The position numbers were made by a program, and so were the translations under genes. 64,000 nucleotides of DNA from positions 744,001-808,000 of the forward strand of contig NC_013525.1 of NCBI RefSeq assembly GCF_000025005.1, given 5' to 3'. The notes under the pieces are model-generated. The model ran no database searches. It was not told where the DNA came from and worked only from the letters and a program-made list of their open reading frames with translations. The DNA comes from Thermobaculum terrenum ATCC BAA-798. Its GTDB lineage: Bacteria > Chloroflexota > Chloroflexia > Thermobaculales > Thermobaculaceae. Below are positions 5,725 to 13,503 of the stretch, in pieces. Numbering within the stretch: position 1 is the stretch's first letter; each line of letters starts with the position of its first letter.

Positions 5725-7278
5725 CTAAAGGACTTTTTCCTTAGGCTTTAGCTTGTGGCTATTTTTGCTCTGTGTTGAGATGTAGAGGTTAGATGCCCAG
5801 TCCCTGCTTAGCATTGGATTAGGGGTGGCCTCGATGGTTTCCAATAGCCTGTTAGCGTCCTTGTAAGCTCGAGACGAAAGCAACATTAGCCTTGCGCCAA
5901 ATGCCTCAGCATCAGGGAAGGATTCTATAACTGTGCCTTCGGATGCTCTCAGAATACCTAGATCTTTCAGACCTTTCTGAGAAGCAAATCCAAGGGAGTT
6001 ACCTGCTAACACTATCTTCACCAACTCATTACTATCTATATCTGCCTTGGTGAGCAATTTATCCTGAAGATCTGCAAGTACCCCCTTGATCCTTTGAACT
6101 TGCCGTATGTGCGCTTGGGAAAGCAGGAATGTATCTGTCTGTGTGCGAATTCGAATAGATAGGTTCTTGTCGTTATGGACTATATCAAGGACTTCTATCT
6201 CTAGGATCTTTCTGTTAGGGGATGTGGGGTGGAGCAGTCCTTTATCATCAATTAGATCAATCCTTTTTAAGGCTATCGTGGCTTCGATTGCCTGTGCAAA
6301 GGTTGGTTTAAGTTCATCAGCTATATCGTGCTCAAAATTGAATAGATCCTTCCTGAAGAAGCCATTGTAGTCCCAGGTGAGTAGACATCTGTTTCCGACG
6401 GTGAGCAGAATCCATGGGTAGGGTTCCAGGGACATAAGCATGTGCGGCGCGTCTGTTTGTATATCTGCTCCCATCATCGAAGCAATCGCAAGCCCGCAAA
6501 TGGAAGGCTTCTCACGTCCAAAGATCTTATAGTTGCCTTCCTCTTCATCTATCCTCAGGGTTCCGTCTGTTACTATGAGTGCGTCGTTTATGTCAGAAAG
6601 TCGTCTGCCGTGCTTAAGACAAGCTGCTCTTAGCAAGCCCTGCAGAGACTGACCCTTACTGATCTCCTTGACTGTATCCGTGAAGATCTCCTCGCCACTC
6701 TCTAGATCGTGGGCCCACACAGAGATTCTTCTGTTTCTTACGACTGCTGCCACTCCTTGGCACTGTTTCTTACTTGCTCCGGGCTCCGTCTTTGTTAGAT
6801 CGCTCCCGACAGAATATAATGTTAGCTCCTTCCTGTAAGCTGTCAGGATAGTTATAGGCAGGATATGCCTGTTATCATCTGTAATATCTGATAGTGAGGC
6901 ATGTATTACTGTTTTTTGCGCGCTAGGTGCAAAGTTGTATTTGTACTCTTTGCCCTGTATACGCACCTTACCGGGCTTATTCGGTACTACCACTATAGAG
7001 TCCGAGTCTAGTTTTGCCTTGCAGGCCAGGCGAAAGCCTGCAGATAGCTCCTTGCTCTCAAAGTGTAGCCTGTCCCAACTTGTTGGTGGTGGGACGTTTT
7101 CAAGAAAGCGGACTCTACATCTCCCGCAGAACCCTGCCCCGTCACATGGGGACTCTATCCCCATGGCTGCGCTATCTTCCTGCTCCGTTAGGGTCTTATC
7201 TGCATTGAGGATAAATCTCTGGGCAGCTGGTAGAAGAGTTATTCTTATTTTCTTGAGTTGTCTTTCTTCTCCACTCAC
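5725..7278 (-). CDS. 2Fe-2S ferredoxin-domain protein with degenerate ASKHA/DUF4445 module
   Basis: The N-terminal ~100 residues form a plant-type 2Fe-2S domain: CDGAGFCGRC near residues 45-54 and a fourth cysteine in RLACKAKL. The C-terminal part matches the DUF4445/RACE layout (reductive activators of corrinoid enzymes): a stretch like ICGLAIASMM, then LLSQAHIRQVQRIKGVL, then IVLAGNSLGFASQKGLKDLGIL and FGARLMLLS. In known members the first half of the actin-like domain holds a DIGTT-type phosphate loop; here I cannot find it, and the conserved AG-FG and GNAAG motifs are altered. The 517-residue length is shorter than typical RACE proteins. No corrinoid protein or methyltransferase is nearby. 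The role is unknown; an electron-transfer or regulatory function is possible. The GTG start has a weak binding site. Confidence 0.65.
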   Translation of the reverse strand: MSGEERQLKKIRITLLPAAQRFILNADKTLTEQEDSAAMGIESPCDGAGFCGRCRVRFLENVPPPTSWDRLHFESKELSAGFRLACKAKLDSDSIVVVPNKPGKVRIQGKEYKYNFAPSAQKTVIHASLSDITDDNRHILPITILTAYRKELTLYSVGSDLTKTEPGASKKQCQGVAAVVRNRRISVWAHDLESGEEIFTDTVKEISKGQSLQGLLRAACLKHGRRLSDINDALIVTDGTLRIDEEEGNYKIFGREKPSICGLAIASMMGADIQTDAPHMLMSLEPYPWILLTVGNRCLLTWDYNGFFRKDLFNFEHDIADELKPTFAQAIEATIALKRIDLIDDKGLLHPTSPNRKILEIEVLDIVHNDKNLSIRIRTQTDTFLLSQAHIRQVQRIKGVLADLQDKLLTKADIDSNELVKIVLAGNSLGFASQKGLKDLGILRASEGTVIESFPDAEAFGARLMLLSSRAYKDANRLLETIEATPNPMLSRDWASNLYISTQSKNSHKLKPKEKVL

Positions 7279-7963: not shown

Positions 7964-9470
7964 ATGGCTCGAGTGCGTACCCAACTTTAGCGAGGGCAGA
8001 GATAGGGCGAAGATAGAGTCAATAGCCTCAGCTGCTAGAGCATTGGGAGCTTACGTCCTGAACATACACTCAGATCCTGACCATAACCGTTCAGTTGTCA
8101 CTCTGGCTGCTCCTGCTGACCAAATAGTTGAAGCTGTAATGTCTATGATACGAAGGGCTGTGGAGTTGTTAGATATAAGGTACCACGTGGGTGTGCATCC
8201 CAGAATAGGGGTTGTGGATGTAGTGCCGTTTGTCCCGCTTGGAGCAGCTACTCAGGAGGATAGCGTAAAGGCGGCAATTGAGGTTGCATCTAGAGTAGGA
8301 AATGAACTCGAAGTTCCTGTATACCTGTACGAGTGGGCTGCGAGGCATCCCGAGTACAGGGCTCTACCGGATGTTAGAAGGCTTTATTCCCAAGCCATAC
8401 TAGCTGGGAATTTCCTGGAACCAGATTTTGGCCCTTTCATGCCGCATCCGACAGCAGGCGCTTGTGTTGTAGGTGCCAGGGGACCACTGATAGCCTTTAA
8501 CTGTGTTCTGGGTACACCTGACGTTTCTGTAGCAAGAAGGATAGCCTTCAGAATAAGAGAATCCTCTGGAGGTATGCTGGGTGTCAGGGCATTGGGCTTA
8601 TGGTTGGAGAGCCTGGGACTTGCTCAGGTATCAATGAATATAGTTGACCCGGTAAAGGCCCCACTACATGTGGTTTTTGAGAGGGTGAAGCAGCTGGCTG
8701 CTCAGGAGGGAACCTACGTGGTCAGTAGTGAGCTTGTGGGCCTAATGCCTTCTAGTGTGGCTCTTGGAGCTGCTTCGCATGCTCTTGGCCTACCAAGCTT
8801 GAGTTTTAGTCAGCTTGTAGAAATGTCGATACTTTCTAGGAGGTCTGAGGTGAATTTGGAAGAGTTTCTTGACAGCCTTGCCAGCAGTGCACCAACACCT
8901 GGGGGTGGTGCAGCCTCGGCACTTGTAGGGGCGATAGCAGCTGCACTCTCGTCTATGGTGGCCAACCTCACCATAGGGAAGAAGAAATATATGCAATTTG
9001 AGGAGGATATGAGGAAGGTGGTAGCTTCCTGTGGGGAACTCAGGTCCTCCTTGCTACAGCTTATGCATGATGATGAGGAAGCTTATAATGCTCTAATGAA
9101 TGCATTCAGATTGCCCAAAGATACCGAAGAACAGGTAGCTGCAAGGAATGCTGAGATACAAAAGGCATTGATTGGAGCTTGTGAGGTGCCTTTGACTATC
9201 GCTCAGAAATGCGTGGAGGTGCTCGAGCTATCTGAGTATGTGGCAGGTAATGGCAATGCTAATGCAGTTAGTGATGCTGGTGTATCTGCATTGATGGCTG
9301 AGGCAGCAGCGAGGGGAGCACTTCTGAATGTGTACATAAATTGTAACTTGATGAAGGATAGTACTCAGGCGGATGGATATAGGAGACGGGCAGAGGAAAT
9401 TGAATCCACTGCCAGATCCAAATCCAGCGAGGTGATGGCAATAGTTCGCTCCAGAATCAATGGGGGGTAG
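7953..9470 (+). CDS. ftcD: Fused glutamate formiminotransferase / formiminotetrahydrofolate cyclodeaminase
   Basis: The protein joins two steps of histidine breakdown: transfer of the formimino group from formiminoglutamate to tetrahydrofolate, then cyclisation with loss of ammonia. The N-terminal transferase begins WLECVPNFSEGRD and contains RYHVGVHPRIGVVDVVPFVPL near residues 70-90. The cyclodeaminase domain starts near residue 305 (LEEFLDSLASSAPTPGGGAASA). This two-domain order is that of mammalian FTCD; many bacteria have separate proteins. The frame is open from ATG 7914, deep inside maf; I chose the TTG at 7953, just before the conserved N-terminus, with GGGTGG upstream; GTG 7941 or 7944 is also possible. 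No hut genes lie in the window. The 3' end overlaps the convergent ABC gene by 14 bases. Confidence 0.88.
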   Translation: MLGRWLECVPNFSEGRDRAKIESIASAARALGAYVLNIHSDPDHNRSVVTLAAPADQIVEAVMSMIRRAVELLDIRYHVGVHPRIGVVDVVPFVPLGAATQEDSVKAAIEVASRVGNELEVPVYLYEWAARHPEYRALPDVRRLYSQAILAGNFLEPDFGPFMPHPTAGACVVGARGPLIAFNCVLGTPDVSVARRIAFRIRESSGGMLGVRALGLWLESLGLAQVSMNIVDPVKAPLHVVFERVKQLAAQEGTYVVSSELVGLMPSSVALGAASHALGLPSLSFSQLVEMSILSRRSEVNLEEFLDSLASSAPTPGGGAASALVGAIAAALSSMVANLTIGKKKYMQFEEDMRKVVASCGELRSSLLQLMHDDEEAYNALMNAFRLPKDTEEQVAARNAEIQKALIGACEVPLTIAQKCVEVLELSEYVAGNGNANAVSDAGVSALMAEAAARGALLNVYINCNLMKDSTQADGYRRRAEEIESTARSKSSEVMAIVRSRINGG

Positions 9471-10443
9471 AATCCGATTCGCTTGGGGCTGTTTTTTCTC
9501 TCCCCTGTAGCAGTCTTACGAAGACTTCGTCAAAATTAGGTCTGTACTCTTTTATGGACCTTGCAGATATGTCGCACGAGTTCAGGCAGGTGACCAGCAC
9601 CTGCGCGCTTGAGCTAGCATTGTTCACATAAAATCTCCAAGTGTTATCCGAAAGTTTTTCAACTCTTTTCAGTTCTTCAAACTGTATTACGTCTGCTAAG
9701 TCGCCTTGAATGACGCCCTCTAGCTCAACATCAATAGCATCCCCACCTATAGCTGTCCTCCTGAGGTTTTCAGGGGTGTCGTAAGCTACTATCTGTCCAT
9801 TTGACATTAGGGCTACATGGTCACAGTATTCTGCTTCTGTAACATACTGGGTTGTAACAAAGAGAGTCTTTCCTTCCCCTTTGAGTTGCCTGAATCCCTC
9901 CCAGATGTGCTCTCTAAGGATTGGATCTATGCCTGCAGTAGGTTCATCTGCAAACAGAATATCCGGATTGTGTACTAACGCAGCAGCAAGTTCCAATCTG
10001 CGTTGCATGCCTCCAGAGAGATCATCTGCTAACTTCTTTCGGTGAGGCCAAAGCTCCAGGAACTCTAAAGTGTTTCTTATGTACTTTCGCCTCTGTATAG
10101 GGAGTAACCCATAGAGGGATGCAGCAAACCGCATGTTCTCCATAACTGACAAGTTGGGATAAAGTACGAAGCTTTGGGGCAAGTATCCTAATCTCCTGCG
10201 ACCCTTTCGTCCAAGCTTGTTAGGAGGCATGCCAAGTACTCTTATATCACCCTTCGTAGGGAGATAATACCCAACTAGCATCCTTACCATGGTTGTCTTG
10301 CCGGACCCACTAGGTCCTATGAAGCCAAAGATCTCTCCCTGTGAGACTGTAAAGGACACATTCTTGACTACTGGAGTGCCATCGAATTCCTTCCAGACGT
10401 TCTTCGCTACGATGGCTATGTCATCTTGATGCTCTTCCCACAT
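9457..10443 (-). CDS. ABC transporter ATP-binding protein (ABC-2/drug-export type)
   Basis: The ABC ATPase domain fills the first ~225 residues: Walker A GPSGSGKTT (about 43-51), Q-loop LPQS, signature LSGGMQRR (about 143-150), Walker B ILFADEPTAGIDP and the switch region TTQYVTEAEYCDH. The H-loop position carries glutamine (TTQ) instead of the usual histidine. The C-terminal ~100 residues (DAIDVELEG to VFVRLL) resemble the extension of CcmA/DrrA-type exporters. A GGAGGCGAT sequence lies immediately before the ATG. It follows the Rad50-like gene by 43 bases on the same strand. No permease gene lies beside it, so the membrane partner is unknown. Confidence 0.85.
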   Translation of the reverse strand: MWEEHQDDIAIVAKNVWKEFDGTPVVKNVSFTVSQGEIFGFIGPSGSGKTTMVRMLVGYYLPTKGDIRVLGMPPNKLGRKGRRRLGYLPQSFVLYPNLSVMENMRFAASLYGLLPIQRRKYIRNTLEFLELWPHRKKLADDLSGGMQRRLELAAALVHNPDILFADEPTAGIDPILREHIWEGFRQLKGEGKTLFVTTQYVTEAEYCDHVALMSNGQIVAYDTPENLRRTAIGGDAIDVELEGVIQGDLADVIQFEELKRVEKLSDNTWRFYVNNASSSAQVLVTCLNSCDISARSIKEYRPNFDEVFVRLLQGREKTAPSESDSTPH

Positions 10444-10486: not shown

Positions 10487-12343
10487 TTAGGCCAGGCTTA
10501 ACTCTTCTCGTCTACTTAGGTTGCTAGAGGTAACTCTGCCATCCTCCATACGTATGAAGTACTGGAATGTACCCGGATCAAAGGACTTGCTGTGGGATAT
10601 TATGCATATCTGTGGAAATATCTTCGCCAGCTCTCCAATAGTTACCAGGTCTATTAGGGACTGCGTCCTCTCTTCATCGAACGAGCTCAGGGGCTCATCC
10701 ATAAACAGGAATCCTGGTGAAGTGCCCCTTTCCTGTGGCAGGCTGGCGATGGCAAAGGCCAATCGCAATGCAAGGCTCATTTGGTCCTTGGTACCGCCTG
10801 AGAAGATGTTTTTCCCTACGTATCGACCAGCTTCTTCGTCCCAGACTTCTATCTTGTAATCTTCACTTATTCTGGCATCGTGGTACCGACCAGCGGTGAG
10901 GACGGGTAGAAGCAGGTTCATGTTCCTCTCAGTATCAGGTAGTACATTGGAGATTATGCGCTTGGTTGACTCTTGCAGGATATGCACCGCAATTTCACGT
11001 ACTCTTATGTCCTCCTCAAGCCTGTCTATCTCCTTCTTGTACTCTTGAGGAGAGCGCAAGTTTTCTTCGCCAGAAGGTATTTCGCTTCTGAGCCAATTTA
11101 TCCTATGGTCAAGTACTTGTATTTCCTGCTTTATCTGATCGATCTTTTGTTTTCTACTTTGCAAATCTACACCAAGCACCATCTCAGGATTGGTTTGCAG
11201 GAACTTTATCTGTGCCTCATATTCGGCTATCTGCATATTCCTATGGTTTACCAGGTCTTGTAAGTCGTTAAGATCTTTCAACCCAAGACTAGTGCTTATT
11301 TCACTGACCTTACGATCGAGTGCCAATAATTGAGCTTCTGAAGCTTGAGAAGTTGCGTCCTTTGAGGTTAACCTCCTTAGATTGCTAACCACCAGGTAAG
11401 CTATAAAGGCTACAGAGGCTATGAGTAATAGACCTTTGATGAACCAACTTATATTTGCGAACAATGCTACAAGCAGGATAATTACTGATAGAAATAAAGC
11501 TGCTAGGGTATTAGGTTCCAGGAATGACCTATTGGGCTTATTAGCTGAGATGGTTCCTTCGAGCTCCCTTTTGCGAGCTAATAGCTGTTGTAACTCCGTA
11601 GCCTGCCCAAGGTCGTTCTTAGCGCTGGCTATTTTAGAGTACAGTGATTTGCTTTGGCTGGAGGCCATGTTTATGAGCCCATTCCTGTAGTCTTCTTCCA
11701 GCTCCTGAAGTGATACCAGCAACTGCTCCTTCTGCGACAGGCAGTTTGCAAGTTCATACCTAATCTTCAGTGCATCGAGCTGCTCTATCTCCCCTTTGGG
11801 TACTCGAAGCCTGTCCTCGATGTACGAGAGCTTCTCCAAGTTGAGTATCTTCATGAGGGAGTCTCGCCTTTCTTTGGCATCTAGTTCCTCAAGCTTGGAG
11901 AGCTTTTTTTGTTCTACTAAGCAGGAGTTAAGTAAAGCAGAGCCATCGATTCCACCAAGTTCCTGTACTATCCGGCTGTTTGCTGCTCTAACGGAGTTTA
12001 TAACCTCTTCTATCCCAGACCCGCTCATTACCCTGAGTGTAATCGTCGACCCTTTGCTTCTTTTCACGGTCCTGTCTATGTACAGGGTATTTTTGTCAGT
12101 ATGCACCGATAACTTTACTCGAAGCTGGTTTTCACCATAAGTTATGAGATCGTCCAGAGATTTCCTATTGGTCTCTGTGACTATGGGTTGACCATAAAGA
12201 GCAAAGTATATGGCCTCAAAGAGGGTACTCTTCCCAGATTCATTTGGCCCTTCTACCAGTATTGTTCCTTGACGCGGGAAAGTTATACAGAGCGACCTAA
12301 TTCTTTTGAAATTGGTGATTTGCAATTCCCCTAGTGTAATCAC
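10487..12343 (-). CDS. Rad50/SbcC-like ATPase with two membrane segments (YhaN type)
   Basis: The 618-residue protein begins with an SMC/Rad50-type ATPase half: LQITNFKRIRSLCITFP and the P-loop VEGPNESGKST (about residues 31-41). Coiled coil follows to about residue 270, then two adjacent hydrophobic segments (LAALFLSVIILLVALFANI and GLLLIASVAFIAYLVV, about residues 275-325), then more coiled coil, the signature FSGGTKDQMSLALRLAFAIA and Walker B GFLFMDEPLSSFD. No Zn-hook CxxC is visible at the coil apex; the membrane hairpin sits there instead. This architecture resembles B. subtilis YhaN. It starts with GTG overlapping the nuclease stop by 4 bases (GTGA). The pair probably works together on DNA ends near the membrane; this is inference. 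Confidence 0.82.
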   Translation of the reverse strand: MITLGELQITNFKRIRSLCITFPRQGTILVEGPNESGKSTLFEAIYFALYGQPIVTETNRKSLDDLITYGENQLRVKLSVHTDKNTLYIDRTVKRSKGSTITLRVMSGSGIEEVINSVRAANSRIVQELGGIDGSALLNSCLVEQKKLSKLEELDAKERRDSLMKILNLEKLSYIEDRLRVPKGEIEQLDALKIRYELANCLSQKEQLLVSLQELEEDYRNGLINMASSQSKSLYSKIASAKNDLGQATELQQLLARKRELEGTISANKPNRSFLEPNTLAALFLSVIILLVALFANISWFIKGLLLIASVAFIAYLVVSNLRRLTSKDATSQASEAQLLALDRKVSEISTSLGLKDLNDLQDLVNHRNMQIAEYEAQIKFLQTNPEMVLGVDLQSRKQKIDQIKQEIQVLDHRINWLRSEIPSGEENLRSPQEYKKEIDRLEEDIRVREIAVHILQESTKRIISNVLPDTERNMNLLLPVLTAGRYHDARISEDYKIEVWDEEAGRYVGKNIFSGGTKDQMSLALRLAFAIASLPQERGTSPGFLFMDEPLSSFDEERTQSLIDLVTIGELAKIFPQICIISHSKSFDPGTFQYFIRMEDGRVTSSNLSRREELSLA

Positions 12344-13503
12344 TCGTTGTAAAGCTCCAGTATGAGATCTCTTGCCTTTTGGATCAAATCGACCTGTGAG
12401 GGCTCGTTTGTGACGCCTATCAGTTCTTCAGCCACCTCGCGGATTCCGTCGACTTGAGATACTCTCAGTCCTCTGGATATACCTGCTGAAAACTCCTCTA
12501 CCACAAGCAGGCGTGTGGTATCTATCTCAAAGTGGAAATTAGCCTCCTGACCTGCCTTCAGCAGCTGTGCCAGCGCAAGAGATCGATAAGTTGTCCTTGA
12601 GATATCTCCCGATAACACTAACCTCATGAGTGTGTCTGGCGAAGCTGACTCCAGGATAGTTGAGAGGAGTTTTTCATGTAGGTTCGTGTCTCCATCAGTA
12701 ATGTATATGTTGTGGTTGATTCTTGGCTGGTGAGGAGTATCTACGTGCTGTATCTCTATCTTCATGTCTGAAGATATTTTGATTGCAGCAAATCCCGTAG
12801 GATTACCCGCTTCTCCAAACGTTATCTGTTCGGTAGCCCCTGGTATAAGCACTTGGACCCTACCAAGCTGAAATCTTTGATGCTGATGTATGTGGCCAGT
12901 GACCACAAGCCTGAGCTGCTGAGCCCTGTTAATAGATTCGAACTTGATTACAGGATCGTTTTCCATAGAAGGTGTAAGCCCCTCGACTGCAGCATGAGTT
13001 ACTAAGATGTCTGGCTCTAAGCCGAGATCCAGGACAGTTTCAAGGGGATCAGTTGAGCGGCTGTCAAAATCGGGTGTGAAGCTGATAATACTTAGATTTT
13101 TTCCTTCAAAGTTAACATTGAGCTGATATGGTTTGCCGCGTTCTGGCAAGCTGAGCGCGCCAAGCGTCGCTAACGGGGCTAGTGGTGATTTTCCACCTTG
13201 CACACTTTGGTTGGATGGCGTATCGTGATTCCCTCCTACTGCCAGGATCTTTGTGCCCCTCTGTAGGAGTCTCTTATAGCAGGAGGCCACAAAATCCAAG
13301 TCGGCGTTGGAAGGGTTAGGAGTATCAAATAGATCTCCTGCCTGCACGAATATATCGGCATTGTGTTGGATGGCATAGTCAACTGCCGCCTTAAAGGATC
13401 TCTGCAGCCAGGATCTTCTAGTCTCTAGCTTGCGGGGAGTTAGCTTGGCGTAGTGTTTGCTTAGGTGATTATCTGCAGTAGCAACGATAAGTAATTTGGA
13501 CAC
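12340..13503 (-). CDS. Mre11/SbcD-like metallophosphoesterase nuclease (YhaO type)
   Basis: The calcineurin-like phosphoesterase motifs of DNA-repair nucleases are all present in order: ADNHLS (about residues 10-15), GDLFD (about 57-61), GGNHDT (about 95-100), VTHAAVEG (about 160) and GHIHQHQ (about 197-203). These bind the two metals of the active site. After about residue 250 comes a less conserved region that would cap the nuclease and contact the ATPase. Of 387 residues, it is of normal size for SbcD/YhaO proteins. The GTG start lacks a strong ribosome binding site. It is the first gene of a three-gene minus-strand operon and diverges from the UDP-glucose dehydrogenase gene. Confidence 0.88.
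   Translation of the reverse strand: MSKLLIVATADNHLSKHYAKLTPRKLETRRSWLQRSFKAAVDYAIQHNADIFVQAGDLFDTPNPSNADLDFVASCYKRLLQRGTKILAVGGNHDTPSNQSVQGGKSPLAPLATLGALSLPERGKPYQLNVNFEGKNLSIISFTPDFDSRSTDPLETVLDLGLEPDILVTHAAVEGLTPSMENDPVIKFESINRAQQLRLVVTGHIHQHQRFQLGRVQVLIPGATEQITFGEAGNPTGFAAIKISSDMKIEIQHVDTPHQPRINHNIYITDGDTNLHEKLLSTILESASPDTLMRLVLSGDISRTTYRSLALAQLLKAGQEANFHFEIDTTRLLVVEEFSAGISRGLRVSQVDGIREVAEELIGVTNEPSQVDLIQKARDLILELYNE

Follow-up and report, generated by a model that had tools for sequence, protein, structure and literature searches.

The locus analysed here lies in a 64,000-nucleotide stretch of Thermobaculum terrenum ATCC BAA-798 DNA (the window; contig NC_013525.1, positions 744,001 to 808,000) and consists of two overlapping genes: an upstream gene encoding an Mre11/SbcD-like nuclease and a downstream gene encoding a Rad50-like ABC ATPase with a predicted membrane hairpin. 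An earlier note, made from the letters of the window, had given the coordinates of the pair together with a 4-base overlap; these, like the strand, proved exact, and the shared bases read GTGA on the coding strand. The same −4 spacing recurs in 13 of the 54 adjacent nuclease–ATPase pairs found among relatives. The features, in window coordinates, are as follows.

12340..13503, minus strand: Mre11/SbcD-like calcineurin-type nuclease, 387 aa, the upstream gene; matches PF00149 and, by sequence, Mre11 structures
13465..13473, minus strand: nuclease motif I, D11-x-H13; invariant in the 23-row alignment A3
13333..13335, minus strand: nuclease motif II, D57 (GDLFD); invariant in A3
13225..13230, minus strand: nuclease motif III, N92-H93 (GGNHD); H93 invariant in A3
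12994..12996, minus strand: nuclease motif IV, H170; invariant in A3
12886..12894, minus strand: nuclease motif V, H204-x-H206 (GHIH); H206 invariant in A3
12340..12343, minus strand: GTGA overlap, shared by the ATPase start codon and the nuclease stop codon
10487..12343, minus strand: Rad50-like ABC ATPase with predicted membrane hairpin, 618 aa
12227..12250, minus strand: Walker A, residues 32-39 (GPNESGKS); G32, N34, E35, G37, K38 and S39 invariant in alignment A2
11543..11797, minus strand: outgoing coiled-coil helix, residues 183-267 (to 268 in one model); AlphaFold2 models
11450..11506, minus strand: predicted transmembrane segment 1, residues ~280-298; hydropathy, insertion energy and shuffles
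11384..11443, minus strand: predicted transmembrane segment 2, residues ~301-320; hydropathy, insertion energy and shuffles
10898..11359, minus strand: returning coiled-coil helices, residues 329-482, with breaks; AlphaFold2 models
10781..10801, minus strand: ABC signature, residues 515-521 (SGGTKDQ); S515, G516, G517, D520 and Q521 invariant in A2
10691..10711, minus strand: Walker B, residues 545-551 (FLFMDEP); D549 and E550 invariant in A2

The nuclease matches the Pfam Metallophos family (PF00149) at 45.5 bits, against a cut-off of 21.5, and its sequence matches Mre11/SbcD proteins both in NCBIfam and in the PDB. All of its motif residues—D11, H13, D57, N92, H93, H170, H204 and H206—are present, and these we take to be the metal-binding motifs by analogy with Mre11. 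The ATPase matches AAA_23, SMC_N and SbcC_Walker_B in Pfam as well as the NCBIfam Rad50 models, the latter below their cut-offs, and its best PDB sequence matches are Rad50 heads. Gln145 is conserved in the 16-row alignment A2, as are Walker A, the signature and Walker B, and the catalytic Walker B glutamate (Glu550) is present. Two single-chain AlphaFold2 models (mean pLDDT 83.0 and 80.3) display a Rad50 head with a short rod; Foldseek returned Rad50 heads first (best E 6e-21), and VIA-align likewise placed Rad50 first (Z 29.2, 349 residues aligned, rmsd 4.4). The pair has the hallmarks of the broad Mre11-Rad50 superfamily, i.e. a coiled-coil rod flanked in sequence by the two halves of an ABC head that carries Walker A, signature and Walker B, and a calcineurin-type nuclease partner with metal-binding motifs. 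The description of the pair in the earlier note, a Rad50-like ATPase coupled to an Mre11-like nuclease, is upheld by the complete head motifs, by Rad50 being the best match in both structure and PDB sequence, by the overlap of the genes and by the intact nuclease motifs.

At the apex of the rod, where two adjacent membrane segments had been proposed to stand in place of a zinc hook, the best hydrophobic 19-mers start at residues 280 (KD 2.80) and 301 (KD 2.42); elsewhere in the ATPase the KD of 19-mers never exceeds 1.52. The apparent insertion energies of segments 1 and 2, calculated with the Hessa parameters, are −3.4 and −1.7 kcal/mol. Two non-overlapping 19-mers with KD of at least 2.4 within 45 residues were seen in none of 20,000 composition shuffles; a weaker test, some single 19-mer of at least 2.0, was not significant (1,071 of 5,000 shuffles). 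The window ATPase contains no CxxC, its only cysteines being at positions 19, 141, 201 and 580, and with no cysteine between 201 and 580 the apical zinc hook of SbcCD and canonical Rad50 is absent. Both AlphaFold2 models place the hairpin at the turn between the outgoing and returning helices, i.e. at the rod apex, a region of low confidence in both (10-residue blocks at pLDDT 40–68). The proposed segments are upheld, and the topology check on the window ATPase, in which an absence of membrane segments would have counted against the proposal, found two hydrophobic ones. From these properties of the sequence we predict that the tip of the ATPase is anchored in the membrane.

The genome encodes a separate SbcD–SbcC pair as well (L061:4020-8397, plus strand), in which a 1021-aa SbcC is directly preceded by its SbcD. 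In the middle of its rod this SbcC reads CPLNRDDC, with six residues between the cysteines and not a CxxC; three of its relatives within the family read CPMSRADC, CPLERSDC and CPLSRADC at the same place, and such a spaced cysteine pair may serve as a working zinc hook. The hairpin type is found in 7/7 genomes of the window's family, seven being the whole family in the collection, and the same seven carry a homologue of the other SbcC; at class level, 9 of 158 genomes match, namely the seven of this family and two of another. The earlier note had allowed that a separate SbcC might turn out to be the true partner of the nuclease. The first half of this stands, as such an SbcC exists, but it has an SbcD of its own directly upstream; given this, and both ATPase types in all seven family genomes, the other SbcC does not take the nuclease of the hairpin ATPase, and the hairpin pair is a dedicated second system. 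On the same two grounds we ruled out that the pair is merely a degraded SbcCD.

Genes for Maf, a formiminotransferase-cyclodeaminase and an ABC ATPase (Pfam scan), together with a UDP-sugar dehydrogenase (by reading of frames), flank the pair. The ABC ATPase gene, of the DrrA-like transporter type (window 9457-10443, minus strand), is separated from the pair by about 43 bases on its downstream side and has the same orientation; it is not followed by a permease gene, the next gene being convergent. Three loci of the family also have Maf and formiminotransferase close to the pair, and the recurrence of Maf, formiminotransferase-cyclodeaminase and the DrrA-like ATPase near it in some family genomes points to a stable chromosomal locus. 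A scan for promoters and terminators gave matches no more frequent than in shuffles, and no yhaM-type gene was recognised beside the pair.

With SbcCD/Mre11-Rad50 the window pair shares the Rad50-type ABC head (Walker A/B and signature), the two-arm rod and an Mre11-type partner next door, whereas the window ATPase lacks the zinc hook and has a transmembrane hairpin at its tip. The pair misses the NCBIfam cut-offs for SbcC (52.5 vs 478.5 bits) and SbcD (52.9 vs 77.65), as do the other SbcC and SbcD of the genome; since the SbcC cut-off is missed by all 251 phylum genomes searched, only the hook is informative against SbcCD. Pfam AAA_27 matches the genome's SbcC as well as the window ATPase. 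No transmembrane Rad50 was described in the open literature searched. The parts belong to a known superfamily; the zinc hook that defines canonical Rad50/SbcC is absent, its place being taken by a predicted membrane hairpin.

The likeness to SbcEF (YhaN-YhaO) of Bacillus subtilis that had been suggested for this arrangement holds for gene order: a nuclease gene comes immediately before an SMC-like ATPase gene, and the two form a second Mre11-Rad50 pair beside a separate SbcCD. YhaN itself is annotated with two central transmembrane segments, and on gene order and these segments closeness to SbcEF is plausible. The two systems differ in their neighbours and in the window ATPase being a protein of 618 aa with a much shortened rod. 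The Bacillus gene order is that of the yhaONM cluster in PMC3896406, which also lists SOS (LexA) control for yhaO/yhaN of B. pumilus. SbcE is reported to interact with SsbA and with the transmembrane kinase YabT, its role has been termed poorly characterized, and SbcEF is reported not to be needed for rescue at a nick.

Our main reading, to which we assign a probability of roughly 70%, is that the pair forms a hook-less, SbcEF-like complex of the Mre11-Rad50 type that is predicted to be tethered to the membrane and would act on DNA ends near it. A membrane-anchored complex might instead act mainly on entering DNA, during transformation or phage infection, and not on the broken chromosome. Its position at the membrane would fit such a role, and B. 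subtilis SbcE (YhaN) has been linked to both competence and break repair, to judge from the title of Krishnamurthy 2010; however, nothing recognisable as a competence or defence gene adjoins the pair, whose scanned neighbours are Maf, the formiminotransferase-cyclodeaminase and the ABC ATPase, and we regard this alternative as unlikely.

The predicted tether to the membrane can be followed through the relatives of the ATPase. Scanning genome contigs with alignment A1 gave 234 relatives, the best 80 of which were kept as loci; an earlier contig scan with a single protein and sparse patterns had given 0 relatives, a zero that means little. Queried against the 251 phylum genomes, the ATPase has matches in 60 at E 1e-10, hairpin and hook types mixed. 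Once rows identical over the first 250 aa had been collapsed (144 to 105 sequences), typing assigned a hairpin to 77 sequences, a single strong segment to 6 and a 'hook' to 8, and left 14 with none, these last including truncated sequences. In a maximum-likelihood tree of 88 heads, a 100/99 branch splits off 6 hook proteins from 82 rows, and of the latter 74 are transmembrane (a label that pools two-segment rows with the one-segment rows L082, L088, L096 and L127), 7 have a soluble tip (a label assigned by hand after inspection, and including L044, whose CEAC was called a hook by automatic typing) and 1 has none, counts that are not independent events, as near-copies remain in the tree. Rows with no detectable Walker A or B are omitted from the tree, as are L072, L076, L078, L079, L167, L168, L173 and L185, and its deepest joins are unsure, with long branches (L071, L073 and the hook rows) meeting there. 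The window ATPase groups with short forms (100/99, 6 rows). Among relatives the outgoing arm ranges from ~93 to 563 residues, so that the rod varies about sixfold with the hairpin retained.

Across 72 hairpins from relatives, the eight residues on each side hold 0.219 K+R vs 0.031 D+E per residue, compared with 0.137 and 0.175 in the arms, and the loops are nearly devoid of Lys and Arg (K+R 0.029); flanks of 15 residues are net-positive in 63 of the 72 and net-negative in 4. Flanks rich and loops poor in Lys/Arg are typical of a hairpin whose two ends both lie on the inside. On the tree, the soluble-tip rows fall within the hairpin side, a placement that needs two changes, and these seven relatives indicate that membrane anchoring is dispensable within the family. 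In the Thermoflexus-type proteins (L057:5483-9166, L091:2458-5823 and L092:1471-5205) a soluble segment of unknown fold replaces the hairpin, and no Pfam domain was found in that segment in L057 or L091. One could take this nested lineage, together with the exchangeability of Rad50 tips (a MukB hinge can replace the yeast hook, according to PMC6969161), to mean that the two hydrophobic helices pack into a buried, soluble knob for dimerisation, which takes the place of the hook outside the membrane. Against such a knob stand the membrane-protein charge pattern on both flanks of the 72 hairpins and insertion energies that are strongly negative across the relatives' hairpins, and we consider it very improbable.

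The partner nuclease was counted in 77 relatives, the window excluded, that have both Walker A and transmembrane segments; 4 of them had too little upstream DNA. A nuclease gene lies directly upstream on the same strand in 54 of the 73 testable relatives; among the other 19, two have it next door in convergent orientation and two more have it ~2.5 kb upstream. In several partner nucleases the motif-III Asn (N92 in the window) is replaced, by Thr in L094, L098, L138 and L145, by Leu in L055 and by Val in L063, and the activity of these proteins, which lack the Asn of GNHD, is in doubt. The nuclease frame of L084 is in two pieces (5769-6194 and 6465-7004, plus strand) beside an intact ATPase gene, L176 has the same gene, and the split frame appears to be a pseudogene or an assembly error. 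Two proteins of one family, L072:3439-6426 (plus strand) and L079:834-3821 (minus strand), have kept the hairpin and lost Walker A, and read FVWLEQS and FIWLEQS at the expected Walker B (DEP) site; they are likely pseudo-ATPases that retain the membrane hairpin. With the motif-III Asn lost in some nucleases and Walker A and B lost in this lineage, neither nuclease nor ATPase action need be the role throughout the clade. In Ktedonobacteria (14 genomes of one family) most genomes have a second SbcD-like frame; the three regions examined showed no recognisable SbcC-like frame next to it.

A mobile or viral origin was rejected: among 72,556 plasmid and 50,697 phage records, 12 and 23 gave any match, and none reached 80% coverage of the query. 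The match on a Priestia megaterium plasmid is a hook-bearing (CPVC) Rad50, tblastn of a 925-aa relative against the plasmids gave no match, and a scan of viral contigs gave 2 weak relatives among 43 pattern matches. The ATPase is similar to Lamassu LmuB in being Rad50-like with a short rod, at the ~610–650 aa of these proteins, and some LmuB lack the hook, as stated in PMC10586767; it differs from them in its intact Walker B Glu, its Mre11-like partner in place of LmuA/LmuC and its membrane hairpin. A Lamassu-like anti-phage or anti-plasmid system with the ATPase as a compact LmuB-type sensor, favoured by a full-length match to the LmuB profile (E 5e-22, 77 bits) and by the short rod, is scarcely credible and was rejected, since that match is unspecific (the genome's SbcC scores 140 vs 77 bits), the Walker B residue is Glu where LmuB generally has Gln (PMC10586767) and the Pfam scan of neighbouring genes found no LmuA/LmuC-type partner, the partner being an Mre11-type nuclease; presence in 7/7 family genomes would also be unlike a typical mobile defence system, and the plasmid and phage result speaks against it as well.

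For the hook-less, membrane-tethered complex that we favour, we envisage that two ATPase and two nuclease subunits would form a cytoplasmic head, which ATP would open and close on DNA, and that the nuclease would cut at or near the ends, as in SbcCD. At its tip each rod would have a transmembrane hairpin, flanked on either side by cytoplasmic residues, that holds it to the cytoplasmic face of the membrane. Since Rad50 tips are stable dimerisation modules, replaceable by the MukB hinge (PMC6969161), the hairpin probably also pairs the two protomers within the membrane. DNA ends, hairpins or blocked ends would then be handled within reach of the rod; at 0.15 nm per helical residue this is ~13 nm from the membrane here, for 85 residues, and ~50 nm for the 340 residues of the rod in Ktedonobacteria. 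The wide occurrence of this kind of tip among relatives in one bacterial phylum suggests DNA-end processing at the membrane; for the substrate of the nuclease and its cellular task, our first guess would be double-strand-break repair at that site.

More broadly, the pair may represent a wide Mre11-Rad50 clade with its dimerising tip in the bilayer, in which the rod would be a spacer of evolving length that sets the distance for DNA-end capture, and the tip would be exchangeable among hook, hairpin and soluble insert; we see the chances of this wider view as evenly balanced. If the tip does anchor the protein in the membrane, nature has already run the tip-swap experiment: related heads bear a hook, a hairpin or a soluble tip, and their rods differ widely in length. 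With this natural variety, swaps could test what tip and rod each do. The compact 618-aa version would be useful for structural work. Finally, an anchoring tip would mean that, in much of the phylum, break processing is organised in space around the membrane.
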